From positions 1 through 60,226 of the forward strand of contig JAILCQ010000007.1 in NCBI GenBank assembly GCA_024679955.1: DNA of 60,226 nt, in the 5' to 3' direction. The stretch comes from Bacillota bacterium. GTDB lineage: Bacteria > Bacillota > Dehalobacteriia > UBA4068. This document shows positions 8,865-59,609 of this stretch, piece by piece. Both the position numbers and the translations under genes were made by a program. The notes below the pieces were generated by a model, which was not told the DNA's origin, made no database searches, and saw only the letters and a list, made by a program, of their open reading frames with translations. The first letter of the stretch is position 1; every line of letters begins with the position of its first letter.

Positions 8865-10001
8865 TCAATCCGACACATCCGCATCCAGAATGATCTGCAG
8901 CGCATAATCCGGATACAAGGCCTGAATCTCTTCGGTCATAATCGCCAACGCTTCGCTTCTGTCCGCATCGAAGCTGACGACAACGTCGAAACGTATCGTC
9001 TTTTTTTCTATATCGGCATAAAAGCCGTGCATCTGCAAAGCCCATGCATGGGACAATACTGTATCTTGAATCTTGTTTCGCATCCGGGCCGCTTCATCGT
9101 CCGAGGTGTTGAAGGAATAAACGCCTATGCCGGTAAGGATCACGCCGGTTTTTTGATAGACGTTCAGTTGTATCCGCCGCGTGATCTGATCGACCATATC
9201 AACGGTCAAATTGTCGGGCAGCTCGATATGTACCGAACCGTAATTCTTGTTCGGCCCGTAGTTGAACAGTATCATATCATATGCGCCCAATACCGCTTCT
9301 TCTTCACAGATGATTTGTTTTAATTCCTTGCTTGTTTCTCCATCGCCGCGCTGCCCTATGATATCATTCAGCGTCTCTATCATCATTTCAATGCCCGCTT
9401 TAATAATGAAAGCTGCGATCACTACGCCCACATAGGCTTCAAGAGAAATCCCCCAGATCAAAAAAATGATAGCCGAAGCCAGCACGGAAGCCGATAAAAT
9501 GGCGTCGAAAGAAGCGTCCGAACCGGATGCGACCAGCGCCCCGGAATTCACCTTTTTCCCCTGCTTTTTTACGTATGCGCCGAGGATCAGCTTTACCCCT
9601 ATGGCAACGGCAATAATGATCAAAGAAACGGCGCTGTAGTCGGCAGCCTCCGGATGAATGATCTTTTTGATAGATTCCACCAGAGCGGTGATGCCCGCAT
9701 AAAGCACGATGGCGGCAACGATCGTAGAGCTCAAATACTCTATCCTGCCATAACCCAGCGGATGCTTTTTATCCGGCTGTTTTGCGCCGAGCTTTGCGCC
9801 GATGATCGTTACCACGGAGGAAAGAGCGTCGGACAAATTGTTGACCGCATCCAATATGACTGCGATGGAGTTGGAGAGCAAACCGACAAACGCTTTAAAC
9901 CCCGCCAACAGTACGTTGGCCGCAATACCGATAACGCTCGTCCTTACGATTGTTTTTTCTCTTTCCGCCGCAATAGCAGAGAGTTCACTGTTTTCTCCCA
10001 T
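8865..10001 (-). CDS. Cation diffusion facilitator (CDF) family transporter
   Basis: This 378-residue protein has the CDF transmembrane domain, with first helices IGIAANVLLAGFKAFVGLLS and a metal-site motif DAVNNLSDALSS. A second metal-site helix (SGSDASFDA) follows near residue 165, and a C-terminal cytoplasmic domain runs from about residue 215. The C-terminal part is longer than in minimal CDFs and has two ferredoxin-like halves (VHIELPDNLTVD and IRFDVVVSFDADRS). The family exports divalent metals such as Zn, Fe or Mn in exchange for protons. The metal cannot be assigned from this sequence. Confidence 0.9.
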   Translation of the reverse strand: MGENSELSAIAAEREKTIVRTSVIGIAANVLLAGFKAFVGLLSNSIAVILDAVNNLSDALSSVVTIIGAKLGAKQPDKKHPLGYGRIEYLSSTIVAAIVLYAGITALVESIKKIIHPEAADYSAVSLIIIAVAIGVKLILGAYVKKQGKKVNSGALVASGSDASFDAILSASVLASAIIFLIWGISLEAYVGVVIAAFIIKAGIEMMIETLNDIIGQRGDGETSKELKQIICEEEAVLGAYDMILFNYGPNKNYGSVHIELPDNLTVDMVDQITRRIQLNVYQKTGVILTGIGVYSFNTSDDEAARMRNKIQDTVLSHAWALQMHGFYADIEKKTIRFDVVVSFDADRSEALAIMTEEIQALYPDYALQIILDADVSD

Positions 10002-10193
10002 GCTTCGTTTACCTCCCCAATTATTCTTTAATATTCACCTTATTCGTTTCTCATAATCATTCTACGCAAAAACCATGTTTTTTTCAACGCCCGGTTTGTA
10101 AAGCAGATTTGCGCATGTCCCTTGGCGCTACCCGCTGCCACACCCTTTTCTCGGAGCGGACAGGCTTCCGCAATACAGCAACAAACGGCGCAT

Positions 10194-10227
10194 AAAAATC
10201 GCCGGCCAGAAATCGCCGGCGATTTTT
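10194..10227. terminator. Bidirectional terminator
   Basis: AAAAATCGCCGG (10194-10205) pairs perfectly with CCGGCGATTTTT (10216-10227). Read leftward it ends the lipoprotein gene at 10328. The rest of the 10002-10327 gap shows no gene. Confidence 0.8.
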
Positions 10228-10327
10228 ATCTGTGCTTTTTCATCGATCGGTTGCCGATCTATGTCCTGATACGGCTGTTATGAAATTGGCCAGACAACGC
10301 GCTTTATCGTTTTACCTTCCGTTTCGA

Positions 10328-10834
10328 TTATTGGACGCTATAGGTTTGTTCGGCCAAAACCGTATCTTCTAAGCTGAGAAACTCAGTGACGATGACCTGA
10401 ACATCCGAATCGCTGGTCAATTCAAAGCAATCATAGCACTCGATGCTGGCGCCGGTCTGTAAATCCTTCCAATCGTTCTCATAAAGCGGGGCCAGATCTT
10501 CCGGCAAATCGTCGCTGAAAACAAAACCTTTTTCCAGCTCTACGCCGTCTTGAAAGCCTTGGATATACAGGGCTACTTCCGCACTGGTCGCTTCTTCGCC
10601 GTTATTGGTAAAGGTATATTTGACGAACAGCAGGTTGTTCCCTTCGGAATCCGTGAAAACCTGAGCGTCTTGCAATTCTACCGCGTAGTCGGAAACGACG
10701 CTATCCGCGGTTTGCGTATCCGCGTCCTGCGTATCCGTATCTTGCGTATCTGTATCCTGCGCAGCGGGGGCTCCGCAAGCGCACAGGCATAAAGCCAAAG
10801 CTATCAGCAATACTCCAAACAGCATTCTCTTCAT
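10328..10834 (-). CDS. Lipoprotein with DUF5067-like domain
   Basis: This 168-residue product has a lipoprotein signal (LLIALALCLCACG; lipid-modified Cys likely near residue 20). A low-complexity Asp/Thr/Gln linker follows, made of three DTDTQ-type units. The C-terminal immunoglobulin-like domain has strands such as NLLFVKYTFTNNGEEATSAE and the closing pattern TGASIECYDCFEL. That resembles DUF5067 domains of surface lipoproteins in Bacillota, which have no known reaction. The start has a GAGGAAG site. It appears monocistronic, with a terminator at 10194-10227. Confidence 0.75.
   Translation of the reverse strand: MKRMLFGVLLIALALCLCACGAPAAQDTDTQDTDTQDADTQTADSVVSDYAVELQDAQVFTDSEGNNLLFVKYTFTNNGEEATSAEVALYIQGFQDGVELEKGFVFSDDLPEDLAPLYENDWKDLQTGASIECYDCFELTSDSDVQVIVTEFLSLEDTVLAEQTYSVQ
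10713..10757 (-). repeat. Three 15-bp tandem units in the lipoprotein linker
   Basis: Units at 10713-10727, 10728-10742 and 10743-10757 are near-identical and encode D-T/A-D-T-Q repeats between the lipid anchor and the folded domain. Confidence 0.8.
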
Positions 10835-10973
10835 GATTCTCTTCCTCCTCTTTTTGGTTGATCACTCAACGTAGCCCGTGGGGCGTGCGCAGTGCCGAAA
10901 CGGAACTTGCGCATACTGTTTTCTCTTGCGCATTGCCTTCCCAATATACGTCTAAACGTATGGCGTTTCGGGA

Positions 10974-13010
10974 TTATTCGTTTTCTTTTTCCGCTTTGGC
11001 CTGGGCGATCACTTTTTCCGCAATGTTATTGGGCACTTCTTCGTATTTGGCAAATTTCATGGTGAATTTGCCTCTGCCCTGGGTAATGGATTTCAGGTCG
11101 ATGGCGTAACGGCTCATTTCCGCCAAAGGCGCCTGCGCATGGATCATTTGGCGTTTGCCTTGCTGTTCCATACCCATGATACGGCCCCGCTTGGTGTTCA
11201 TATCGCCCATGATGTCGCCCATGAACTGTTCGGGCACCAAAATATCCACATCCATGACCGGCTCCAGGAGAATGGGCTTCGCCAGCTCGCAGGCTTTTTT
11301 GAAAGCCAGGTTGGCGGCGATTTTGAAGGCCATTTCCGAAGAGTCTACGTCATGGTAGGAACCGTCCACCAGAGTGATTTTGATATGAGTGGCGGGGAAA
11401 CCGGCCAAAATACCTTCGCTCATGGATTCGCGCATACCTTTTTCCACGGCCGGGATATATTGTTTGGGTACGGAGCCGCCGAAGATCTTTTCTTCAAAGG
11501 TAAAATCGTTTTCCGGATCGGGCTCGATATCGATTTTAACGTGACCGTATTGTCCATGGCCGCCGGATTGTTTTTTGTGTTTGCCTTCTACCAATTGGGC
11601 GGTGCCGCGAATGGTTTCCCGATAGGGGATTTTGATATCCGCGGTATTCACTTCCACGCCGAATTTCCGGGCCAGACGGTCGATGACGATATTCAGATGG
11701 GCCTCGCCCATACCGGTCAACAGGGTTTGTCTGGTTTCCACGTTCTTTTCATAGCGCAGGGTGGGATCTTCCTCCAACAGCCTGTTGATGGCGTTGCCCA
11801 ACTTGTCTTCGTCCGCTTTGGTCTTGGGCACGATGGCCATGGTCAGAGTAGGTTCGGGGAAATCGATGCCGTCCAATACGATCTTGCTGTCTTTCATGGT
11901 AAGCGTATCGCCCGTAACGGTGGAAGAGAGTTTGCTGACAGTGGCGATATCGCCCAAATTGACTTCGGTGACCGGGTCGGCGGTTTTACCGATCATGGTG
12001 GAAAGCTGGGCCACTTTTTCGTCCGCGGATTTATTGGGATTGTACATGGCGCAATCGCCCTTCATCTTGCCGGACAAAACTTTGAACATGCTGATGCGGC
12101 CCACATAGGGATCGGCCAGGGTTTTGAATACCAAAGCGGCCGCCGGCTGATTGGCCGCGTCTTCCGGCAGAGCTTCCAAAGGATTGGGCGCGTAATCCAC
12201 CAAAACGTCCATCAGTTTGTCCGCGCCGATGTTTTTCAAAGCGGAACCGCACAGCACCGGAACGACTTTGGCGTTTTTCAGACCTTCTTTCAGGCCCAGG
12301 ATGATTTCATCGGTGGTCAGTTCTTCGCCTTCCAGATATTTCATGGTGATGTCGTCGTCGCCTTCCGCGGCGGCTTCGATCATCATTTCCCGATAGTGAG
12401 CGATTTCGTCCTGCATATCGCCGGGGACCGGAACTTCCGTGGCTTTGCCTTTTTCATAGGCATAGGCTTTCATCGTGATCAGATCCACCATGCCGTTGAA
12501 ACCGGATTCTTTGCCGATGGGCAATTGTACGGGAACGATTTGCCGGGTCAGTTTTTCGCCCATGGAATCGAAAGCTTTGATAAAGTCGGCGTTTTCCCGA
12601 TCCAGCTTATTGATAAAGGCGATCACCGGGATCTTGGCGTCGTCGGCCAGTTCCCAAATGATTTCGGTAGTTACTTCCACCCCGGCTACCGCGTCCAAAA
12701 CCATGACCAGACTATCGGCAACCCGCAGGGCGCTGACAACTTCGCCAAAAAAGTCGGAAAAACCGGGAACATCCAAAATATTGATTTTGTGATCCCGCCA
12801 TTGGCAAGCCACCAAGGAAGTGTTGACGGTGCTTTTACGTTTTAATTCTTCGGGATGATAATCGGCTACCGTATTGCCGTCATCGACTTTGCCCAGCCGG
12901 TTAACGGCGCCGGTGTTGAATACCATTGCTTCGGTAAGAGAAGTTTTACCAGCGCCTTGGTGCGCTACAATCGCCACGTTGCGAATTTTGTCAGAAGCAA
13001 ATACCTTCAT
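10974..13010 (-). CDS. fusA: Elongation factor G-like GTPase
   Basis: The 678-residue protein has the full EF-G plan. GTPase motifs are G1 AHQGAGKTSL (residues 16-25), DVPGF and NKLD, followed by domain II and C-terminal EF-G domains ending in the MGDMNTKRGRIMGMEQQGK region. The G1 loop reads AHQGAGKT rather than the AHIDAGKT of housekeeping EF-G, and the product is slightly shorter. These features mark the EF-G-like paralogue group rather than the str-operon factor. Its exact role in translocation or ribosome recycling is uncertain. It stands alone, with a GGAGGACG site before the ATG, not beside ribosomal protein genes. Confidence 0.85.
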   Translation of the reverse strand: MKVFASDKIRNVAIVAHQGAGKTSLTEAMVFNTGAVNRLGKVDDGNTVADYHPEELKRKSTVNTSLVACQWRDHKINILDVPGFSDFFGEVVSALRVADSLVMVLDAVAGVEVTTEIIWELADDAKIPVIAFINKLDRENADFIKAFDSMGEKLTRQIVPVQLPIGKESGFNGMVDLITMKAYAYEKGKATEVPVPGDMQDEIAHYREMMIEAAAEGDDDITMKYLEGEELTTDEIILGLKEGLKNAKVVPVLCGSALKNIGADKLMDVLVDYAPNPLEALPEDAANQPAAALVFKTLADPYVGRISMFKVLSGKMKGDCAMYNPNKSADEKVAQLSTMIGKTADPVTEVNLGDIATVSKLSSTVTGDTLTMKDSKIVLDGIDFPEPTLTMAIVPKTKADEDKLGNAINRLLEEDPTLRYEKNVETRQTLLTGMGEAHLNIVIDRLARKFGVEVNTADIKIPYRETIRGTAQLVEGKHKKQSGGHGQYGHVKIDIEPDPENDFTFEEKIFGGSVPKQYIPAVEKGMRESMSEGILAGFPATHIKITLVDGSYHDVDSSEMAFKIAANLAFKKACELAKPILLEPVMDVDILVPEQFMGDIMGDMNTKRGRIMGMEQQGKRQMIHAQAPLAEMSRYAIDLKSITQGRGKFTMKFAKYEEVPNNIAEKVIAQAKAEKENE

Positions 13011-13165
13011 TGAACGTCCTCCTTAAACAGCAATAAATAATCGAAGATGAATTTGCGCAATCATTTATATATTATATGTCGAACAAATAATTCCTTTTAA
13101 AACGGGAGATATTTTTGCAAAGGACGGCATAGGTTTTTCCATAGACAAGATGGGGAGCGACGGCT

Positions 13166-14659
13166 ATGTACGGGGAAAAAAGCCTTTGGTGGGGAACCTT
13201 TTGGATGCTCGTCTCCAACATCGCCGTCAAAGGTCTGGGTTTTTTCTATCGGGTGGTCATGGTGCGATTATTGGGCGCGGAAGGCATGGGGTTGATCGAA
13301 ATGGTCACTCCTTTATACGCCTTCCTGCTGGTATTGGCCGGTTTGGGCATACAGCCTGCCCTATCCCAGAAGATCGCCCAAAACGACGCCGCCCATCTGG
13401 ATTATCTGCATACCGGCCGACAGATCATGCTGGCCGCCGGCGTGGTTTTGACCGTTTTGGCCTATCTGCTCTGCGAAGAGATTGTCGCCGTTTTTGCACC
13501 GGATCCCCGGATCTATCTTTGCTTTCGTACCCTACTGCCGGCTGTGCCCATTGTCAGCATCGCCTCTGCTTATCGGGGATGGTTTCAGGGCCGGCGGCAA
13601 ATCGCCGCCATCGGCGGCAGCCAAACCGCTGAACAGATGATACGCGTCCTCTGCGGCGTTTATCTGACCAAACTTATGCTGGATCTGCCTTTATCTCAGG
13701 CGGTATCCGCCGCCTCTTTGGCTACGGTCTGCGGGGAGCTGGGCGGCTTTTTGCTGCTGTTGCTGCTGTTCTGGCGGCAAAACCACGGCAGCGAATGCCG
13801 GCGGGGTCGCTTTTCCCCTGCCATGGCCAAGGAACTATTGCGCTACGGTCTGCCCGTTACCGCCGGCCGCCTAGTCAACAGCGGCATTCTGATGGCGCAA
13901 GCCTTTCTCATCCCCTGGGCTTTGCAAAAGGCCGGCTGGGATATGCGGGGGGCAACGGAGATCTACGGCCGCTTTTCCGGCGTGGCTATGACGCTGCTGC
14001 ATTTGCCGGGGGTATTTACCGCCGCGCTCAGCGTGGCCGTTTTGCCGGCGGTGGCGGAGACGCTGCGGCCTTCCGCCAAGGATTTGTTGCAAAAAAGAAT
14101 ATGCCAATCCCTGTCGGCAACAGTGATCTTCACCTTGCCGGGAATGGCCATACTGTATCTTTATGCCGGCGAATTGACCGCCTGGATCTTTGACACGCCA
14201 TTGGCCGCCCCCATATTGCGGGTTCTGGCGGCAGGCGGCGTCTTTTGGTATATCCAGGTGACGCTGCTCAGCATTCTGCAAGGGATGGGCGCCGCCAAAC
14301 AGGTCTTGTACGGCAATATCCTATCCGGCGCACTGCTACTGCTGGGCGCCGTCCTGTTCACGCCTCTTCCCCAATTCGGCATTCTCGGCGCGGCATTGGC
14401 CGCCGATTGCGCCTGGTGCGGCGGGGCGATCTTCAATGCCTGGCGTATCCAGGCCTTGGGAAAGCTGCGCATCCCCTGGGACAAGATCGTTCAAGCGCCC
14501 GCCTTGTCCCTGGCGGCGGCCCTGGCCTGCCGGATGGCGGTCCGTCCGCTGCTGGAAAAGGCCGTGACGCAACCTCAGTTGGCGGCGGCCACCGCCGGGG
14601 TGTTCCTGGGCGTATATCTTTTGGCGATTTGGCGGAGCGGCGCTCTCAAGCGCCGGTAA
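13166..14659 (+). CDS. SpoVB/MATE-like polysaccharide flippase
   Basis: This 497-residue integral membrane protein has about 12-14 hydrophobic helices. It begins with the typical WWGTFWMLVSNIAVKGLGFF and GAEGMGLIEMVTPLYAFLLV segments of the SpoVB/MurJ-like (MVF/PST) flippase superfamily. Such proteins flip lipid-linked sugars; SpoVB itself acts in spore cortex formation. The gene lies alone between leftward genes, with a GGAG site 10 bases before the ATG. The family is clear, but assignment to SpoVB rather than another polysaccharide exporter is inferred. Confidence 0.82.
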   Translation: MYGEKSLWWGTFWMLVSNIAVKGLGFFYRVVMVRLLGAEGMGLIEMVTPLYAFLLVLAGLGIQPALSQKIAQNDAAHLDYLHTGRQIMLAAGVVLTVLAYLLCEEIVAVFAPDPRIYLCFRTLLPAVPIVSIASAYRGWFQGRRQIAAIGGSQTAEQMIRVLCGVYLTKLMLDLPLSQAVSAASLATVCGELGGFLLLLLLFWRQNHGSECRRGRFSPAMAKELLRYGLPVTAGRLVNSGILMAQAFLIPWALQKAGWDMRGATEIYGRFSGVAMTLLHLPGVFTAALSVAVLPAVAETLRPSAKDLLQKRICQSLSATVIFTLPGMAILYLYAGELTAWIFDTPLAAPILRVLAAGGVFWYIQVTLLSILQGMGAAKQVLYGNILSGALLLLGAVLFTPLPQFGILGAALAADCAWCGGAIFNAWRIQALGKLRIPWDKIVQAPALSLAAALACRMAVRPLLEKAVTQPQLAAATAGVFLGVYLLAIWRSGALKRR

Positions 14660-32664: not shown

Positions 32665-32955
32665 ATAAAAACGCTTTCGTCTCTTGGGCCAAGAGACGAA
32701 AGCGTCGCTTCCGCGGTACCACTCTTGTTGGTATGCGCACATACCCTCTTAAAGCATCCATTAATGCCTTCCATTGATCACGGGAGGAACCCCGTCCGGG
32801 CTTACTGACACCTTTCAGCCCGGCCGCTCCAGGGCGAGCGTAAATCATGTTTGGGACTGCCTCGCACCTACCGGCAGCTCTCTGCGCCGCAACACATAAT
32901 CTTTTTTCCCTATCTCAGCGTTTAGACGATATGAAGTTGTTCATACATGGTAAGG
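32665..32955 (-). promoter_or_regulatory. T-box leader (tRNA-sensing riboswitch)
   Basis: Read leftward, the leader has a Stem I region with the typical GAGCTGCCGGTAGGTG apical part and a GCCCTGGAGC end. A Stem III-like hairpin follows, then the T-box core AGAGTGGTACCGCGGAAGC (antiterminator; TGGTACCGCGG at 32711-32721). A perfect 15-bp terminator (32671-32685 with 32691-32705) followed by TTTTTATA completes it. The gene start is 49 bases beyond. T-boxes respond to uncharged tRNA. The specifier codon lies in the segment before GCTCGCCCTGG, but I could not assign it. Confidence 0.93.
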
Positions 32956-45059: not shown

Positions 45060-45104
45060 CTAAGTAATTTCCATAAACCATCGCTTCAAAACCTGTGACG
45101 CAGG

Positions 45105-45275
45105 ATGGTTAAAATACAGGCAGGTATTCCGACTTTGAAGTCCGCGCTGATGTTTCGCCTTCCCATAAATAGCTTACAGTGACTGTTTTACAACTTGAAA
45201 CACAGCTCGTTCATCACGGCAACAGGTTTGTTTAGGATTCGCACCTAATTCCCTATTAATGCAAAATGCAACCAT
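45105..45275 (-). promoter_or_regulatory. Cobalamin riboswitch 1 (tetrapyrrole operon)
   Basis: Read leftward it shows GGGAA, GGTGCGAATCC, CACTGT, a GGGAAGGCG block and the closing AAGTCGGAATACCTGCCT, in cobalamin-riboswitch order. ATGGTT/AACCAT forms the outer P1 stem. A terminator and hemA follow. High cobalamin should stop the operon. Confidence 0.92.
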
Positions 45276-45303
45276 GCGTTTTTATACATATTCAATTGAG
45301 GCC

Positions 45304-45462: not shown

Positions 45463-45491
45463 AAAAGCGGCGGGGCCGAAGCCCCGCCGCT
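45463..45491 (-). terminator. Terminator of the surface-protein operon
   Basis: An 11-bp GC-rich stem AGCGGCGGGGC/GCCCCGCCGCT with a tetraloop (45466-45491) and a T-run on the minus strand, 26 bases past the last gene. Confidence 0.88.
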
Positions 45492-45516
45492 GCCGTTACG
45501 ATCCAAATATAACCGA

Positions 45517-47166
45517 TTATAACAGATCGACTTTTTCCAGCAAATTATAGAGCATTTGCGCGATTTCCCAGCGTAGAATGGGGGTGGTGGGTTTCGCATT
45601 TTGATCGCTGGGATCCATGATCCCTTCTTTATAGCAGAAGGCCATATTTTCCCGGGCCCAATCGCTGATCTTGGCCGCGTCGCCGAACTTGGCCAGCGTG
45701 CCTGCGATCTCGCTTTCATTCAGGCTGATCTGCACGCCGCAAAGCTTATTGGCGGAGCGGGCCACCATAGCGGCGGCTTCCTGGCGGGTGATGGTGCCGG
45801 CGGGATCGAAGACGGTGGCCGAGCGGCCGTTGACGATGCCGTATTTATAGGCGGCGCCCACATAAGGAGCAAACCAGGCGTTGGCAGGCACGTCCGCAAA
45901 CGTATTCACCGTCTGCTGCGGCAGGCCCAGACCGTTGACGACGATGGTGGCAAACTGGGCGCGGGTCATGGTATCATCGGGGCCGAAGCTTTCGGCATTG
46001 TAGCCGTTGATGATTTTCCGGGCGGCCAAAGCTTCAATGGCGGCTTTATTTTTGTGATTGGCGATATCCGCAAAAGTCACGCCCTCGGCCACAACGGGGA
46101 CCTTTTTCACATCCGGATGCATACCGGTGGGGCTGGGGGGCGTATTGCCGCCCGGCTGGCCGGAGACATGGATGTTGCAATCGCTCATATTGTAGAGGCT
46201 GTTCTGGCCTTTGACAGCGCGCAAGGCGGCGACCAGGCCGTACAAACCTTGTTCCGAGGACATTTGATCGTTGCCGCTGCCCTGGTTGGTATGGATAAAG
46301 CTGCCGTCCGGCTTGCTGTAGCTCAACAGATTATCCAGCAGGCCATGGCCGTTTTTGACAAAACGGCTGTCCTGCAGATCCAGGCCCAAAGCGCAGAGAC
46401 CGACGATTACCTGAACCACGCTTTCGGAATTGGCCGCGTTCCAGCTGGAATAGCCGCCTTCTTCATCCTGCATCTTGCTTAAGCAGGCCAGGGCTTTGTC
46501 CACTGCCGCCGCCACCTTGGCTTGCTCTTTGTAATTGGCCAGCGCCTGCAGGGCCATGCCGGTGATATCCGGGTCGGCCTGGCCGCTGCCGCCCTCGCCG
46601 GTCAGGTTCCAGCCGCCGTCGTCCAGCTGCCGGCGGAGGATCTCGTCCACATACATTTGACGGGAAGCCTGTTTGACCGCCTCGGTATTGACGGGCATTT
46701 CATAAGCGGCGCTGTCCAGGGCGATCAGCGCCCAGATGGGGCCGTTGACGCCTTGCCAAACGGTCTTGTCAAAATCGCCCAGAGGCGTCAGCAGATTATA
46801 TCCGGCCACATTGGTGGGATCGGCGCCGATGGAGGTCAGCGCCAAGGCTACCCGGGAATACTCGGTGTATTTCTTCGTATGCAAAACGCCGTTCTTGGCT
46901 TTTACATATTCTTCCACTTTGGCATAGTAATTGTCCCAGTAGCTCTGGGGCACGTTCTGGCCGCTGCGGGCCAGTCCAATGACGGCCCATTCGCCGCCGA
47001 TGGAAGCCACCTGCGGTTCCTTAACGGTGTTCTGTATGTAGGCCGCGCTTTTGGCCACGGCTGCGCTTAAATCGCTGTCCGAAACCGCCATGGCCGGCAA
47101 AGCAAAACATACGATCAAGGCCAGGGCCAAGAACAAACTCCATGCTTTTTTAGTCAGTTGTTTCAT
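45517..47166 (-). CDS. Secreted alpha-barrel (transcobalamin N-terminal-like) protein with SLH domains
   Basis: The 549-residue protein has a signal peptide (SLFLALALIVCFALPAMA). An ~310-residue alpha/alpha-barrel of prenyltransferase/terpene-cyclase-like repeats follows, with GGEWAVIGLARSG, GPIWALIALDS, DDGGWNL, DPDITGMALQALANY and SSEQGLYGLVAALRA. A short proline-rich linker leads to three SLH domains from about residue 365 (FADIANHKNKAAIEALAARK, FADVPANAWFAPYV). The barrel resembles that of intrinsic factor and transcobalamin, and closely resembles the protein at 49829. I infer a wall-anchored corrinoid-binding role. It is the last gene of the riboswitch-led operon. Confidence 0.85.
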   Translation of the reverse strand: MKQLTKKAWSLFLALALIVCFALPAMAVSDSDLSAAVAKSAAYIQNTVKEPQVASIGGEWAVIGLARSGQNVPQSYWDNYYAKVEEYVKAKNGVLHTKKYTEYSRVALALTSIGADPTNVAGYNLLTPLGDFDKTVWQGVNGPIWALIALDSAAYEMPVNTEAVKQASRQMYVDEILRRQLDDGGWNLTGEGGSGQADPDITGMALQALANYKEQAKVAAAVDKALACLSKMQDEEGGYSSWNAANSESVVQVIVGLCALGLDLQDSRFVKNGHGLLDNLLSYSKPDGSFIHTNQGSGNDQMSSEQGLYGLVAALRAVKGQNSLYNMSDCNIHVSGQPGGNTPPSPTGMHPDVKKVPVVAEGVTFADIANHKNKAAIEALAARKIINGYNAESFGPDDTMTRAQFATIVVNGLGLPQQTVNTFADVPANAWFAPYVGAAYKYGIVNGRSATVFDPAGTITRQEAAAMVARSANKLCGVQISLNESEIAGTLAKFGDAAKISDWARENMAFCYKEGIMDPSDQNAKPTTPILRWEIAQMLYNLLEKVDLL

Positions 47167-47293
47167 CGTTTCCCCTCCATTATAAAATCATTTAGTATTT
47201 CAAATATCCGCCGGCGGGCTCGCCGGCTGTGAACCGCATGTATCCAGCGGGAGCGGGTTTTTCCCGCCCTATCCCCTTTCCGTCCCTATCGGT

Positions 47294-47343
47294 AACCGGC
47301 CTGGGAGAAGGAGAATAAAAACCCAGGCCGGTTTGGTAAATTA
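47294..47343. repeat. Stable hairpin between the two SLH genes
   Basis: AACCGGCCTGGG (47294-47305) pairs perfectly with CCCAGGCCGGTT (47332-47343). No T-run follows on the minus strand, so it may be an mRNA-processing or partial termination hairpin. Confidence 0.6.
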
Positions 47344-47376
47344 TCCCAATCCATCCGCTGACCGGAAAGACTGCGA

Positions 47377-49635
47377 TCAGTTTCCGAGATAGCGGTAAAG
47401 GAAGGTGACCATCTGGGCCCGGCTGCAGCCCGCATTGGGGCTGAAGGCAGTGGCGGAAGTGCCGGCAGTGACGCCTTTTTCCACCGCCCACAGCAAAGCC
47501 GGATAGTAATAGGCGCTTTTGTTCACATCGGTAAAGCTGCAGGCGGTGTTTTGCGCCTGGGGCGAACCGGCGGAACGCCAGAGGAAGGTCACCATCTGGG
47601 CCCGGCTGCAACCCGCATTGGGGCTGAAAGCGGTAGCGGAAGTGCCGGCGGTGACGCCCTTTTCTACCGCCCACAGCAAGGCCGGATAATAATAGGCGTT
47701 TTTGTCCACATCGGTAAAGCTGCAGGCGGCGCTTTGCGCCTGAGGCGAACCGGAAGCCCGCCAGAGGAAGGTCACCATCTGGGCCCGGCTGCAGCCCGCA
47801 TTGGGGCTGAAGGCAGTGGCGGAAGTGCCCTGGGTGATGCCTTTAGATACCGCCCATTGCAAGGCCGGATAATAATAGGCGTTTTTATCCACGTCGGCAA
47901 ATGCCATGCCGTCCGTATTGCCCGGCGTGACGGGCGTGACGGGTGTGACCTGTCCGTTCTGGGTCAATTCGGCATATTTCTTTTCCGCGGCCTGCAAAAT
48001 GTCGTAATTGCTCACCATTCTTTTCTGGAAGGCGGTCAGTTTGTCATAGGCATTGCGGGCGGCCTGGATGGCGTCGCCGGAATCCTTGGTCACTGTGCCG
48101 ATGGCGTCGATCAGCTTCTTTACGGCGGCGGCGGCCTTCATATCCTCATCGTTTTCATCAAAGGTATTGCCGATATCCGCCCCCAGCTGGCAGGTATACT
48201 GCCAGCGGACCACGTCGCCGTCTTTCACATTGAATTCGGAAGCGCCTTTATTGATGAACCAGTCGTTCCAGGTGATCATCCAACCGGAATCCCGGCCGGC
48301 GTCAAATTCACCAAAGGAGCCGTATCTTTTGCCGTTGACGGTAAAACCGCTGATGGCTTCCAGGTAGAAGCCGCTGAACTCGCTGCCCTGATAGGAAGGG
48401 GTTATGCCCTTTTCCTTCAGCAGGCGCAGAGTCACGCTGGCGATGGTGTCGTTTTTCTTAAAGGGAACGCGGGTGGCGCTGATGATCGTGCCCAGAGGCG
48501 AGCGAAAATCGGATTCTATTTCGGAAAGCTCCGTACTTTTGCGTTTGCCATTGTCTTCAAAGCTGACCCTGACATAGCCCACGATCTCCTCCGGCTTCAG
48601 GCCGAATTCCGCTTGCGGATCAACAGCGGTCACGGTGATATCGCATTCATCCGTATAATTGCCCGCCTTGGCGGTGATGGTGGCCTCGCCCTTCTTTACA
48701 GCGGTCACCAGGCCGTTTTGGCTGACTCTGGCTATAGCGTTATCGGAAGAATACCAGGTCACCGTTTTGTCGCTGGCATTGTTGGGGGATACGGTGGCAC
48801 GCAGCTGCAGCGTTTCCTGCTCTTCCAGGGAAGCCGTGTGCTTATTCAAAGTGACCCCGTTTACCTCGATGATCTGAGGCTGCACCTGGGCGAAAACCGC
48901 CTCTACCGTCACATTGGCAGCCGGCATGTTAAACTGCCGGGCAGTGGTGATATCCCGGGCGCTGCCGCCTGCCGGCGTATAGGTGATCTTATCCAGCTCA
49001 TAGCCGTTGGCAGGGCTGATATTCTTGATGCGGACGATATCGCCTTCCGCCGCGATGGTTTTATCCACGTCAAAGCTGCCGTTGTTGGCAGGGATCACGG
49101 TGACGTTGTAGCGAGTCACAGAGGGGTCGGGGTTGATCGTCAACGTGGCCTGGGCGCTGCCGCGATATCCGTCATCACCGTAGTCCTTGCTGGTTTCCAA
49201 GCCCTGTATCTGTACCGTATAGGTACCGGCGGTATTGGCGGGCACGGTGATGGTAAATTTACCGAATTGATCGGTGGTGACGTTCTCCGAATCTGCAGTT
49301 GACCAACCTACGAACCCGACGCCGTTTACGCAGTTAAAATCACTGCCGCTGAAATCCGTGCCCGCCACGCCGGCGGTGCTGGTGATCTCCGCCCCGGACC
49401 AGCCGGGCACGATCCGGTATTCGATGCCGTCCAAAGCAATCGGCTGGGCGGAGGTCACGGTGAGGGTAACCTGCTGCTCAGAGCTGCTCTCCTCCAATGT
49501 GGAGGGAGACAGGACCGCATTGACGGTCAGCGTTTGAAAGTCTGCCAGAGCATTGGGCCCCAACAGCAGGACCAGGAATGCCGTCAGGCATAGAAGGGTA
49601 AATATTGCTTTTTTTACCGTTTTCTTCTGTTTCAT
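47377..49635 (-). CDS. SLH surface protein with cohesin-like, Big2 and DUF4430 (transcobalamin C-terminal-like) domains
   Basis: The 752-residue protein starts at an ATG with GGAGAG upstream and has a signal peptide ending at NALA. Residues ~33-165 resemble a cohesin-like beta-sandwich (VTLTVTSAQPIALDGIEYRI to YTVQIQGLE). An InlB-like repeat follows, then a bacterial Ig-like Big2 domain (LNKHTASLEEQETLQLRA). At about residues 375-490 is a DUF4430 domain with FDAGRDSGWMITWNDWF and VKDGDVVRWQYTC. A helical spacer leads to three nearly identical SLH repeats. DUF4430 corresponds to the C-terminal domain of transcobalamin-like proteins. It may pair with the alpha-barrel partners. The cohesin call is tentative. 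Confidence 0.83.
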   Translation of the reverse strand: MKQKKTVKKAIFTLLCLTAFLVLLLGPNALADFQTLTVNAVLSPSTLEESSSEQQVTLTVTSAQPIALDGIEYRIVPGWSGAEITSTAGVAGTDFSGSDFNCVNGVGFVGWSTADSENVTTDQFGKFTITVPANTAGTYTVQIQGLETSKDYGDDGYRGSAQATLTINPDPSVTRYNVTVIPANNGSFDVDKTIAAEGDIVRIKNISPANGYELDKITYTPAGGSARDITTARQFNMPAANVTVEAVFAQVQPQIIEVNGVTLNKHTASLEEQETLQLRATVSPNNASDKTVTWYSSDNAIARVSQNGLVTAVKKGEATITAKAGNYTDECDITVTAVDPQAEFGLKPEEIVGYVRVSFEDNGKRKSTELSEIESDFRSPLGTIISATRVPFKKNDTIASVTLRLLKEKGITPSYQGSEFSGFYLEAISGFTVNGKRYGSFGEFDAGRDSGWMITWNDWFINKGASEFNVKDGDVVRWQYTCQLGADIGNTFDENDEDMKAAAAVKKLIDAIGTVTKDSGDAIQAARNAYDKLTAFQKRMVSNYDILQAAEKKYAELTQNGQVTPVTPVTPGNTDGMAFADVDKNAYYYPALQWAVSKGITQGTSATAFSPNAGCSRAQMVTFLWRASGSPQAQSAACSFTDVDKNAYYYPALLWAVEKGVTAGTSATAFSPNAGCSRAQMVTFLWRSAGSPQAQNTACSFTDVNKSAYYYPALLWAVEKGVTAGTSATAFSPNAGCSRAQMVTFLYRYLGN
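47399..47920 (-). repeat. Three tandem 183-bp SLH repeats
   Basis: Units beginning near 47401, 47584 and 47767 share long identical blocks at a 183-base (61-codon) period and encode the SLH domains. The low divergence suggests recent duplication or gene conversion. Confidence 0.85.
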
Positions 49636-49828
49636 TGCTACTCTCCTTTCCCTATGCCGCCGACGGTCGCGGCTATGCATGCACAAACGATATGATCATC
49701 CGCAGCCGTAAGGCCGCTCCGGCGGCTGTAATAAACAAATGGGCGATATACAATGCCGGTCACACCCTGTTTTGCTGTTCCCACGCAGGTTTCCCGGCAA
49801 TAAAGCCTTTAAACCTGTTGACGCTGCA

Positions 49829-51199
49829 TCAGTTTGAAGTATCCCAACCCAATGTGACCCTTTGCAGCAAGGCGGCTTTCAGTTTGGTCACGTCCTGGTT
49901 GTTCACCGAGCCGTTGCCGTTGACGTCCGCCCCGACCTGCTCCAAGGGGGTGAGGCTGCGCTTTTGCAGGTTGGCCGCTTTGATGATGGTAGCGTCCTGA
50001 TTCGCGACGCTGCCATTCAGATTGGCGTCCCCTTTCTTGACGATGACAATGGTGGTATTCGCCGTCATATTGACGGTAAAACGATAGCTGCCTCTGACAG
50101 CCGTGGCCGCAAGCCGGGTGTAGGTTTTGCCGCCATCGGTGCTGTAGGCCACCGCGCAGGCCTCGTCGCAGGAAACGGTGAAGCTGGTCTCGCCGGCATA
50201 TTGGCCGCTGCTGATACCGGTCACCGTGGCAGCGCCGCCCGTGCGGTCATCCAGGGTAACGGCATACTGCTGCTGCAGCACATCCGTCATATCGTAAAGA
50301 CGGGTCTTGCCGTTCAACATGCGGCTGTAGGCCACCATGGCATAAAAGGCCTGTTCAGTAGCCATCTGATCGCCGCTGCCATCCATGGTGTGCTTAAAGC
50401 TGCCGTCCGGCAAAGCATAGGCCATCATCTTTTCAAAGACTGTCTGACAATCCAGGCCCAAAGCGCAGCGGGCCACCATGATCTGGGCCAGGGTTTCCGA
50501 AGAAGCCGTGGCCTGCATAGCGTCCATGACGGGCAAAGCCCTGTCCACAGCGGCTTTCACCTGGCTGTTGGTGTTATAGTACGGGGCCAGAGCCTGCACC
50601 GCCATGGGCGTCATATCGTCAGCCTGCGTTCCTATGGTCCAGCCGCCGCCGTTCAGTTCGCTATCCAGGATATAATCGATCAGCCATTCCCGGGTGACCT
50701 GCTTACTGGGATCGGCGTTTTCGGGTATCGCATAGTTGCCGCAGTCCAAAGCGATCAGCGCCCAGACGGGGCCGTTGATGCCTTGCTTCGGCACATAGGA
50801 TGTGTCGGTAAGCCCCTGCAGCAGATCATGGCCGCCCACATCGGTCACATCCTTGCCCAAAGCAGCCAGCGCCAGGATCACACGGGAATTGTCCGTGGAT
50901 TTGTTTTTATGCAGCCGGCCGTTGGCGTCGATCTTGCTTTCTACATAAGACACCACATTATCATAATAGTCTTCCAGGAAATCGGCATCCATGAGGCCGT
51001 TGCGGGCCAGGCCCAAAACCAGCCATTCGCCGTAGGTAGACCCGACTTCCGGAGCGCTGGCTTCCGCCACGTTCTTCAGATAGGCCTGGGTCTTCGCCAG
51101 GGCGTCCGGCAAAGACGTTTCCGCCGCCAAGGCTCCCGCCGGGCATAACGCCAAGGCCAGCGCCAAAACCAATAGAAGGCTCAATATTTTCTTCCACAT
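49829..51199 (-). CDS. Secreted alpha-barrel protein with dockerin-like C-terminus
   Basis: The ~456-residue product starts at an ATG with GGAGG 9 bases upstream, which excludes a longer frame. A signal peptide (LLLVLALALALCPAGALA) precedes an alpha/alpha-barrel with YGEWLVLGLARNG, NGPVWALIALDCGNY, NGGGWTIGT and ATEQAFYAMVAYSRM, matching the protein at 45517. A small beta domain follows. The last 65 residues have two calcium-loop repeats (GDANLNGSVANQDATIIKAA and GADVNGNGSVNNQDVTKLKA) typical of type I dockerins. It has no SLH domain, so it may attach through a cohesin. First gene after cobalamin riboswitch 2. Confidence 0.87.
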   Translation of the reverse strand: MWKKILSLLLVLALALALCPAGALAAETSLPDALAKTQAYLKNVAEASAPEVGSTYGEWLVLGLARNGLMDADFLEDYYDNVVSYVESKIDANGRLHKNKSTDNSRVILALAALGKDVTDVGGHDLLQGLTDTSYVPKQGINGPVWALIALDCGNYAIPENADPSKQVTREWLIDYILDSELNGGGWTIGTQADDMTPMAVQALAPYYNTNSQVKAAVDRALPVMDAMQATASSETLAQIMVARCALGLDCQTVFEKMMAYALPDGSFKHTMDGSGDQMATEQAFYAMVAYSRMLNGKTRLYDMTDVLQQQYAVTLDDRTGGAATVTGISSGQYAGETSFTVSCDEACAVAYSTDGGKTYTRLAATAVRGSYRFTVNMTANTTIVIVKKGDANLNGSVANQDATIIKAANLQKRSLTPLEQVGADVNGNGSVNNQDVTKLKAALLQRVTLGWDTSN

Positions 51200-51382
51200 G
51201 CTAGGATCCCTCCTCAAATATGAATTCTTTTTTTCCGGATAAGCTCGTTTTCTTGCAAAACCGTGTATTAAAAAAAGCATGCGCCTTTCATAACCATAAA
51301 CAACCGGCATAAAGCACTGTATTCTCTTTTTTTGTTCATTACGGGAAACAATGAGGGATAAAATCATCAAAATGAGAAAAAT

Positions 51383-51411
51383 AAAAAACGCCGGCACGAT
51401 CGTACTGGCGT
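51383..51411 (-). terminator. Riboswitch-linked terminator
   Basis: The stem ACGCC...GGCGT with an inner GTAC/GTGC extension (51388-51411) is followed by TTTTTT on the minus strand, between riboswitch 2 and its first gene. Confidence 0.8.
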
Positions 51412-51455
51412 CCAATGCTAATAAGATATACGCCTAGTGACGGTAGACGTGCTGC

Positions 51456-51559
51456 AACAATCCGGCGTATCTGACTTATCCTCTCCCGGAGGCTTCACAG
51501 TGACCAACTCGTGGGGACTTTCACCCCATTCCGCTTTCGGCATTCACCGATGGACTGTT
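51456..51559 (-). promoter_or_regulatory. Cobalamin riboswitch 2 (surface-protein operon), compact form
   Basis: Read leftward it has GAAAGCGGAATGGGGTGAAAG, then TCCCCACGAG, TCACTGTGAAGCC and AAGTCAGATACGCCGG. The outer stem is AACAGTCC/GGATTGTT (with one G-U). The order matches a compact cobalamin riboswitch without the large peripheral extension of riboswitches 1 and 3. A terminator and the dockerin/alpha-barrel gene follow. Confidence 0.82.
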
Positions 51560-51625
51560 CCGTATCTATGCAGTTGTAAATGGGATTGGAGAATATGGTC
51601 TTATAAACGGTTCTGATTTTTTTAT

Positions 51626-51654
51626 AGTATACTGCCATTCTAGGGAAAAGTCAA
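51626..51654 (-). promoter_or_regulatory. Promoter of the surface-protein operon
   Basis: TTGACT and TATACT with a 17-base spacer on the minus strand, upstream of riboswitch 2. Confidence 0.82.
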
Positions 51655-57139: not shown

Positions 57140-57255
57140 AAATCATATACTGATACCTATAAAAAATATATAGGAAGGAGTTGCAATAAGCCGTTTGGTA
57201 CATGGATGATATCCTGTATCGCGGCGAGAACAAACAAAAGAAAAACTACATGGTT

Positions 57256-57461
57256 CATCGTGTCACCCGTTAAGACTGCCGCCAGGCAGGCGCGGTGATT
57301 AGGAAATCCGGTTAGAGTCCGGGATACGACCCCCGTAACTGTAATTGCGGGAGGGTGTTGCTCGTGGAGTGATCCGGTCATTGGGGAAACCTGAGAAGGC
57401 TGAGCAATATCCGCAGGCGCGCAAACCGCGCCCCAACGCATGAGTCAGTAGGCCGACGATG
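57256..57461 (+). promoter_or_regulatory. Cobalamin riboswitch 3
   Basis: The segment has GGAAATCCGGTTAGAGTCCGG, ACCCCCGTAACTGTAA and the closing TGAGTCAGTAGGCCGAC, in the order of a full-size cobalamin riboswitch. CATCGT (57256-57261) and ACGATG (57456-57461) form P1. A terminator follows at 57518. Confidence 0.9.
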
Positions 57462-57517
57462 ATCTGAACCAATGGATTTGCCGCTTAGGGAACGGCGGAT
57501 CCAAAGGATGGGGTGAA

Positions 57518-57758: not shown

Positions 57759-59609
57759 ATGAATGCACGAAAACTTTTCGCCATCTTTCTGGCGGCCCTG
57801 TTGCTTGTGGGCGCTTTCGGCGTCAACGCTATGGCCAGCACCGGTGATTACCACAAACCGCTGACGCTTGACAATGTAACCTTGACCTTCGGCGATGAAA
57901 CCAATCCCACCTGGCCGGAATCCAATATGTATTTCAAAGAGGAATCCACCACTACCTATCAGGCTGTCTACAGCACCAACGGAACCTCGGAGTACACCGG
58001 CTACTATCCGGATATCCTGTCCATCTATATTGTACCGGCCAACAATGTGACGATCACATCGATTACCGGTACGGATGTGGATTTCGTCACCTATGACAGC
58101 GACGGCACCCCCACCTACAGCAGCACCACTACGGTGAACGCTGAAAATTTCTATGCCATCTGCCCGAAATCGAATAGTTCCCAGATCGTTGTAACGCCGA
58201 ATAGCGGCAGCCCGGTGACCGTAAAGTTCAAAGCGCCGGTATCCCAAACCGCTTCCGGCGGCGCTACCCCCAAGACGGTATGCGGCTATCTGCCCGTGGG
58301 CCAGTTCGCCCGTGCCAACAGCATGGGCTGGGGCACGATCTATACGGACGGCACCAATGAATACGCCTCCAGCAAAACCCCGAAATTTGCCAGCGGCTAT
58401 GTCAGCACCGGCGTTTCCCTGGGCATGCTGGGCGGCTATGTGCAGTATGAATTTGCCGACGCCATCGGCAACGACGCGGACAACCCCTACGGCGTGGATT
58501 TCGTCGTCTACGGCAATCCCTTCAACGGCAATCCGGAGGCCGGCAGCGTGATGGTCTACGGCAAAAACACGGCCACCGAAACCTATGGCTGGTACAATCT
58601 GGCCGGTTCCCGCCACTACATGAGCGGAACGGAATGGAATGTCAATGTTTCCTACATTAAGATCGAGGTAGCTACAAATAATCTTCCCCTGTCTATCGGC
58701 AGCAGCACCTTTGCCAAGAACGGCGTGTATTATTCCACGAATTATGTGCCCGGCGATTATACGGACAGCCAGGCGAATACCGCCATTTCCAATGCCTCCT
58801 GGTACGCCATTCCCAACAGCGCGGCCACTGCCGCCACGCCCGTGGCCTCCAATACGTCCAATCTGACCACGGTAGGCGTTTCCTACTGGCCGGAAGTGGC
58901 AAATAGTGAGAACTATGGCCAGGTCTGGAAAATGCAGCGGCCGGATACCACCACCGTGGGTGAAAGCGGCGTGGACGCCCATGTGGCCGGCGTCTACTGG
59001 CAAACCAATGGCAGCGCGCCGGTGATCACCTATCAAGGCGTGACCAAGGTAGCGGATTCCGATACCACGGACGACTATCGCTTCGGTTATGCCGACGTGC
59101 GGGTCAACGGCAGCAATTACGGCGTGGCCGTTAACCCCTACGCCACCGCGCCTTCCGCGGCCAACGGCGGCGACGGCTTCGACCTGTCCTGGGCGGTGGA
59201 TGCCGACGGCAAGCCCGTCAACCTGACGGATGTCCGCTTTGTCCGGGTCTACAGCGCCGTGCTGTACAATGCCGGCATCTTCGGCGAGACTTCCACCGAG
59301 GTCTGCGGCATTTATGTGGCCAGCGGCGCCGGCAGCGGAGCGGCCAGCGTTACGCCCACTGTCAAGATCAATGGCACAACCATTGCTACAACAAATATGG
59401 GCCTCTCTACAAAAAGGATTTACAATGGTTCAACAGCTACAATAAATGTTACGTCCGCTGCGGATTACATTTACATTAATGGTTCTTTGGTCGCATCCGG
59501 AACGAATTATACTCTGGACATCTCCCCTGGTAACACTTATGATGTACAGATAATAACGCAAAAAGGCACTGAATCCCCATATGTGACCGTACTAAAAATA
59601 ACTAGATAA
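57759..59609 (+). CDS. Secreted protein under cobalamin riboswitch control, function unknown
   Basis: The 616-residue protein has a signal peptide (LFAIFLAALLLVGAFGVNAM, cleavage near MAS). It is rich in Thr, Ser, Gly, Tyr and Asn with few charges, as in extracellular beta-rich proteins. Blocks such as VCGYLPVGQFARANSMGWGT, YGVDFVVYGNPFNGN and RFGYADVRVNGSNYGVAVNP suggest lectin- or sandwich-like folds. The last ~90 residues form a small beta domain. No SLH, dockerin or sortase motif is seen. Regulation by cobalamin implies corrinoid acquisition, but this is inference. GAAAGGACG precedes the ATG. Confidence 0.82.
   Translation: MNARKLFAIFLAALLLVGAFGVNAMASTGDYHKPLTLDNVTLTFGDETNPTWPESNMYFKEESTTTYQAVYSTNGTSEYTGYYPDILSIYIVPANNVTITSITGTDVDFVTYDSDGTPTYSSTTTVNAENFYAICPKSNSSQIVVTPNSGSPVTVKFKAPVSQTASGGATPKTVCGYLPVGQFARANSMGWGTIYTDGTNEYASSKTPKFASGYVSTGVSLGMLGGYVQYEFADAIGNDADNPYGVDFVVYGNPFNGNPEAGSVMVYGKNTATETYGWYNLAGSRHYMSGTEWNVNVSYIKIEVATNNLPLSIGSSTFAKNGVYYSTNYVPGDYTDSQANTAISNASWYAIPNSAATAATPVASNTSNLTTVGVSYWPEVANSENYGQVWKMQRPDTTTVGESGVDAHVAGVYWQTNGSAPVITYQGVTKVADSDTTDDYRFGYADVRVNGSNYGVAVNPYATAPSAANGGDGFDLSWAVDADGKPVNLTDVRFVRVYSAVLYNAGIFGETSTEVCGIYVASGAGSGAASVTPTVKINGTTIATTNMGLSTKRIYNGSTATINVTSAADYIYINGSLVASGTNYTLDISPGNTYDVQIITQKGTESPYVTVLKITR

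Follow-up and report, generated by a model that had tools for sequence, protein, structure and literature searches.

The operon studied here lies on the minus strand of the window, the whole stretch of 60,226 nucleotides that was analysed, which belongs to contig C19 of a Bacillota genome (assembly of 1.92 Mb in 44 contigs, 95.7% complete). It extends from position 51654 to position 45463, the coordinates given in an earlier note on this DNA, and consists of a promoter, a predicted compact cobalamin riboswitch, an intrinsic terminator, a gene for a barrel protein with a dockerin, a gene for a DUF4430 protein with SLH domains, a gene for a barrel protein with SLH domains and a closing terminator. 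Each of the three open reading frames has a Shine-Dalgarno-like site and codes for a signal-peptide-like N-terminus, both read by eye.

Genes and products of the operon

Gene 1 (49829..51199, minus strand) codes for a protein of 456 aa with a signal peptide, an alpha/alpha barrel (about 50282-51121), an Ig/CHB_HEX_C-like segment and a type I dockerin (about 49865-50035; Dockerin_1, E=2.8e-8). The product of gene 2 (47377..49635, minus strand; 752 aa) comprises a signal peptide, an InlB-B-like and a Big_2 domain, the DUF4430 domain (48193-48450; PF14478, E=8.3e-9) and three SLH domains. Gene 3 (45517..47166, minus strand; 549 aa) encodes a signal peptide, a second alpha/alpha barrel (46171-47079), for which an all-helical fold is predicted, and three SLH domains. 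The barrel with a dockerin-like end, the DUF4430 protein with SLH domains and the barrel with SLH domains that the earlier note had claimed were thus all recovered.

The barrels of genes 1 and 3 are paralogues with 45% identity, and neither of them reaches a Pfam cut-off (SQHop_cyclase_C, 20.2 versus 26.1 bits). It had been proposed that the two halves of a corrinoid-binding protein reside on separate wall-bound proteins. The separate genes are present. For a cellulosome-type attachment of the dockerin protein, a search for a cohesin partner (PF00963) gave no match in the 95.7% complete genome.

The operon is closed by a strong, GC-rich terminator, GCGGCGGGGC-UUCG-GCCCCGCCGC followed by UUUU, which was located at 45463..45490 (minus strand) by a hairpin search and by direct reading, in agreement with the previous claim. 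The gap between genes 2 and 3 contains a 12-bp perfect inverted repeat without a T run (47294..47333, minus strand), which may have an effect on mRNA processing or stability. Just downstream of the operon a further cobalamin riboswitch (45102-45292, minus strand; RF00174, 83.7 bits) heads a group of tetrapyrrole biosynthesis genes (44917-38835), of which one is hemA-like by sequence and the others were identified by Pfam as HemC, CobA-HemD, HemB and HemL. A T-box leader is found at 32689-32925 (minus strand; RF00230, 112.9 bits).

Barrel loci in related genomes and the ECF-CbrT importer

A profile of the barrel matched in 41 of the 149 genomes searched, the window's genome included. A scan of GTDB genomes yielded at least 584 confirmed barrel relatives in hundreds of genomes, the named ones being mostly gut Clostridia and Paenibacillus. 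Gene neighbourhoods were counted at 79 non-duplicate named loci other than the window, with the loci showing enough sequence as denominators; the named loci were the 80 most similar ones, which biases them towards close orthologues. SLH domains are present in nearly all barrel ORFs (78/79). The next gene after the barrel gene codes for a DUF4430 protein at 67 of 72 loci, and downstream of the barrel gene ECF-T (55/65), ECF-A (50/58) and a CbrT-like S component (46/54) were found. A cobalamin riboswitch lies upstream of the barrel gene on the same strand at 43 of 52 loci, compared with only 2 of 52 on the opposite strand.

Gene 3 is an orthologue (about 70% identity) of the barrel-SLH gene that precedes DUF4430 and ECF-CbrT in the relatives, and orthologues of the gene 2 DUF4430, 61-63% identical, are situated immediately upstream of barrel-SLH genes at loci L105/L176. 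The importer genes of this genome are located on contig C31, which carries a DUF4430 protein, ECF-T, ECF-A and an S component downstream of a cobalamin riboswitch that scores weakly, at 24.8 bits and under the cut-off; the T component was assigned by homology to the loci of the relatives. The S component of four loci, C31 among them, matches 6FNP with E=1.9e-18. This entry is the solved structure of ECF-CbrT, and both cobalamin and cobinamide are substrates of CbrT (PMC5997447).

This genome thus has the usual locus in two places, the surface part in the window and the importer on C31. The earlier observation that no transporter adjoins the operon was correct, the ECF-CbrT set being on another contig. 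The reading of the operon as an outer capture layer only had to be given up, since in most relatives the barrel gene is directly followed by genes for DUF4430 and for the ECF-CbrT importer, and the corresponding set is found here on C31.

Predicted folds of the barrel and DUF4430 domains

The AlphaFold model of the gene 3 barrel, calculated from 79 sequences, is all-helical (pLDDT 96.1, pTM 0.93). Foldseek matched it in the PDB to terpene cyclases, which came first, to FTase beta, to GH105-like enzymes and to transcobalamin (TMq 0.59). Since the TM-scores of these matches are similar, the barrel alone is not diagnostic; terpene cyclases and prenyltransferases match it at least as well as transcobalamin does, and it is also close to GH105/GH88-type folds. 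A sequence search of the PDB with the barrel profile retrieved squalene cyclases and similar toroids and no B12 carrier, and neither gene 1 nor gene 3 was matched by PF01122 at E<=1. We also considered a class II terpene cyclase or prenyltransferase. SQHop_cyclase_C and Prenyltrans remained under their Pfam cut-offs, and gene 3 has DPDIT where the DxDD acid motif of the cyclases would sit. A cyclase function was rejected because of the family profiles under cut-off together with the B12-uptake context.

Roughly 20 of the 80 named loci have barrel and DUF4430 in a single ORF. One such natural fusion, from locus L139, was modelled from a 12-sequence alignment (pLDDT 85.3, pTM 0.70). Its 15 best PDB matches are exclusively transcobalamin, intrinsic factor and haptocorrin (E=7e-10 to 2.5e-7), the next one is the isolated beta domain of transcobalamin, and its DUF4430 part superimposes on the transcobalamin beta domain with TMt 0.72-0.73. 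The placement of the two domains in the apo model differs from that in holo-transcobalamin (TMq 0.38, rmsd 10 A). In the predicted structure, the fusion agrees with the B12 carriers in domain composition and order and does not show the closed arrangement. In the comparison with intrinsic factor that the earlier note had called for, the top 15 matches of the fusion are thus all B12 carriers, and those of the window barrel alone are headed by terpene cyclases. The intrinsic-factor-like domain composition itself is corroborated by the predicted barrel fold, by PF14478 in gene 2 and by the fusions matching B12 carriers best.

At the sequence level, a profile of the fusions reached Transcobalamin-1 (E=1.4e-4) and Transcobalamin-2 (E=2.1e-4), both ranked below squalene cyclases, and the best score of PF01122 on the fusions of relatives was 16 bits versus a cut-off of 25. 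Profiles of DUF4430 alone matched transcobalamin-2 only weakly (E=0.71 and 0.1); the value of 0.71 belongs to a profile containing the window DUF4430, for which it was the sole PDB match. A single-sequence search with the window DUF4430 gave polyubiquitin, and these matches were discarded as spurious.

The alternatives to a carrier assembled from both domains concern different steps, and their probabilities need not sum to one. First, barrel and DUF4430 could act unassembled as parallel receptors, each binding corrinoid alone or with DUF4430 as the only binder. This alternative, which touches the assembly step only, is possible if on balance doubtful: the alpha and beta domains of the animal carriers can each bind Cbl when isolated (PMC11107200), the operon has two barrels to one DUF4430 and thus no 1:1 ratio, and no closed sandwich is seen with confidence in the fusion model, but the fusion or adjacency of the two domains in most loci suggests that the pair evolves together.

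Second, the ligand under cobalamin control could be another one, such as cobalt, a lower-ligand base, a cobinamide-type precursor or a glycan, with a glycosidase- or cyclase-like barrel and DUF4430 as a general ligand domain. We regard this as rather improbable. The likeness of the isolated barrel to cyclases, FTase beta and GH105/GH88-type folds would fit it, as would the occurrence of DUF4430 outside such a context, e.g. in the control genomes of Lactococcus lactis and Methanosarcina, and the cobalt ECF genes CbiQ/O/M, which are also under a cobalamin riboswitch in this genome. However, the fused barrel-DUF4430 matches B12 binders above all else, and the adjacent S component resembles CbrT, a carrier of cobalamin and cobinamide (PMC5997447). 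Cobinamide as the ligand would be a variant of the favoured reading, a cobamide-scavenging surface system, and does not contradict it.

The leader of the operon

A sigma-70-like promoter, TTGACT-17-TATACT, was found at 51626..51654 (minus strand) upstream of the leader, where it had been claimed. The consensus scan returned 3 sites versus 1.6 expected in shuffles, so that the match is weak by itself. The putative riboswitch (51430..51558, minus strand) consists of P1 (ACAGUCC/GGAUUGU), P5 (GGGG/CCCC), a conserved core formed by GGUCACUGUGA and AAGUCAGAUAC, and P13. The P13 hairpin, ACGUCUA-CCGUCAC-UAGGCGU (51430..51450, minus strand), is helix 6 in the leader alignment and helix 5 in the held-out alignment. 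An intrinsic terminator, GGACGCC..GGCGU with a T run (51377..51413, minus strand), was detected by the hairpin search, as the earlier note had stated. The sequence GGCGU of the P13 3' strand is complementary to ACGCC of the terminator 5' strand, which makes an alternative pairing possible. By eye we also noticed a complementarity between the loops L5 and L13 (GUGA/UCAC), a candidate for a kissing contact; P13 covaries strongly.

Rfam scans of the whole window and of the leader gave no match of the leader at threshold, and RF00174 did not report the region 51558-51430. When a short stretch was scanned, the sole related match to the leader was RF01482 with 17.4 bits (gathering cut-off 50 bits, E=0.56). 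The minimum free energy of the leader is no better than that of shuffles, and covariation was therefore used as the test instead. A motif search of relatives revealed the same compact layout before barrel genes or in barrel loci at L065/L109, L128, L154, L161, L175 and L181. In the alignment of the leaders 17 of 30 base pairs show double compensatory changes; shuffling of the columns gives 7.5 +- 1.6 such pairs and sliding of the partners 2-7.

A covariance model, R1, was built from seven leaders including that of the window, which scores 127 bits as part of the training set. Elsewhere in the same genome R1 matched two more leaders, on C4 and C20, and further ones were found in other genomes. 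Among nine held-out leaders, 19 of 30 pairs are doubly changed versus 11.8 +- 1.8, in an alignment that was fitted to R1 and thus leans towards the model. Of the held-out copies, one precedes a barrel-DUF4430 fusion and another precedes ECF-T. The leader G030:C23 from another genome was found by R1 and also by RF00174 (47.7 bits, above the RF00174 cut-off), and this double match connects the compact leaders with the established cobalamin riboswitch family. In each of the nine compact leaders that were inspected, a terminator hairpin is followed by a U run.

From covariation and homologous copies, and not from the Rfam score, we conclude that the leader at 51558-51430 is a genuine divergent cobalamin riboswitch, with corrinoid sensing as a prediction. 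The earlier note had named an Rfam score below threshold as a refutation. Formally this outcome was obtained, and it is outweighed by the covariation and the homologues. The wider claim that the operon is under cobalamin control is strengthened by the recurrence of this element in front of homologous genes and by the R1-type leader that passes RF00174. A reading of the leader as an ordinary 5' UTR with a terminator and no corrinoid sensor, which the scores under the Rfam thresholds and the shuffle-like folding energy might suggest, is highly improbable in view of the covariation, the conserved cobalamin-riboswitch core, the copies before homologous genes and the one homologous leader recognised by RF00174.

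The predicted energies of the two states of this riboswitch are near even (-56.0 versus -55.3 kcal/mol). For this reason the direction of the switch was deduced from how the leader is laid out and by analogy with known cobalamin riboswitches; the complementarity of the P13 and terminator strands corresponds to an OFF-switch layout.

Compact leaders were also encountered in other settings. In this genome a compact cobalamin-type leader on C20 (L186, 6598-6722, plus strand; R1, 49 bits) precedes genes for a family-5 solute-binding protein and an ABC transporter, possibly a corrinoid- or cobalt-responsive importer. In relatives, full-length and compact cobalamin riboswitches are arranged in tandem upstream of giant barrel-DUF4430 proteins (L066, 668-1131; L068, 3812-4274).

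Further cobalamin riboswitches

With RF00174 we found 15 cobalamin riboswitches in the genome, 14 of them above the cut-off. Corrinoid biosynthesis genes (CbiK, CobU, CbiA-like) of this genome also lie under riboswitches, as does a BtuFCD-type transporter, a partner for which a genomic search had been suggested in the earlier note. The presence of both sets implies that the organism likely makes as well as salvages corrinoids. At L022 (14105-14592, minus strand) two tandem cobalamin riboswitches lie upstream of 12664-13668 and 9155-12646. The first of these codes for a protein of 334 aa that has no match in Pfam, the second for a DUF4430/SLH protein of 1163 aa.

A second riboswitch of the same regulon is situated in the window at 57241..57475 (plus strand; RF00174, 40.6 bits) and precedes the gene for a secreted protein of 616 aa (57759..59609, plus strand). 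This protein has no Pfam or NCBIfam match. It is homologous to parts of riboswitch-linked DUF4430/SLH surface proteins on C4 and C22 of the same genome and to giant proteins adjoining barrel genes at L126, L138, L141 and L155. By this homology it is probably a further component of the same surface system, and its recurring domain is a candidate for a new corrinoid-linked surface domain.

Proposed mechanism

The operon quite probably encodes a cobamide-scavenging surface system in which a split carrier feeds ECF-CbrT. The model is based on sequence, homology, covariation, gene neighbourhood and predicted fold; within it we infer the switch direction, ligand binding, assembly and hand-over. At low intracellular cobamide the compact riboswitch would be unliganded and P13 would leave its 3' strand free. 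GGCGU could then pair with ACGCC, no terminator would form and the three genes would be read. Bound cobamide would stabilise P13, so that the terminator forms and the operon is switched off. The exported products would be the alpha/alpha-barrel proteins of genes 1 and 3 and the DUF4430 protein of gene 2. The ligand would be handed to a membrane-bound DUF4430 protein and then be imported by ECF-CbrT, which is encoded on contig C31 here and in most relatives next to the barrel gene.

Cbl is bound in transcobalamin by the beta domain before the alpha domain closes over it, and without Cbl the two domains do not associate (PMC11107200). From this dependence it follows that separate barrel and DUF4430 proteins of one operon could act as a split carrier. 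Tentatively, this could be taken further to a split transcobalamin, in which wall-bound barrel and DUF4430 proteins are glued together by the corrinoid, which is part of a Bacillota-wide surface system that feeds ECF-CbrT, and which shares common descent with the animal carriers; the latter could have arisen from a fused bacterial form.

Surface capture of B12 is less known for Firmicutes (PMC8941943), and in the open-licence literature, surveyed mostly by title and abstract, we found no description of barrel/DUF4430 proteins joined with ECF-CbrT. The combination is a concrete, widespread and testable system, in which a riboswitch and wall proteins come together with transporters of a functionally characterised family. 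Its bacterial proteins can be compared with intrinsic factor and transcobalamin, which bears on the origin of these carriers and on the competition for B12 in the gut.

Comparison with known systems

The leader shares the conserved core, P5, P13 and the terminator platform with the known RF00174 and RF01482 riboswitches and differs from them in its compact form, which misses both Rfam models at their cut-offs. The CbrT-like S component links the barrel loci and C31 to the ECF-CbrT system of 6FNP (PMC5997447). For the characterised Lactobacillus ECF-CbrT, encoded in an nrdJ-cbrS-cbrT-pduO cluster, no extracellular capture protein is described (PMC5997447), and in the genome studied here ECF-CbrT does not adjoin the window operon.

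BtuG and BtuH, surface lipoproteins of Bacteroidetes (PMC6143338, PMC8941943), likewise capture B12 at the surface before a membrane transporter and are linked to cobamide-transport loci. They belong to other organisms with another envelope and transporter, and are outer-membrane lipoproteins, whereas the window system has SLH anchoring. That the B12 binders of animals have a C-terminal DUF4430 domain was already known (PMC4350170). Transcobalamin, intrinsic factor and haptocorrin are composed of the same two domain types, an alpha/alpha barrel and a ubiquitin-like DUF4430. In the animal carriers (PF01122 Cobalamin_bind plus beta domain) both are part of one chain, as they are in the bacterial fusions of the relatives, whereas in the window they are encoded by separate genes and, unlike the animal carriers, bear SLH or dockerin ends and stand under predicted riboswitch control.
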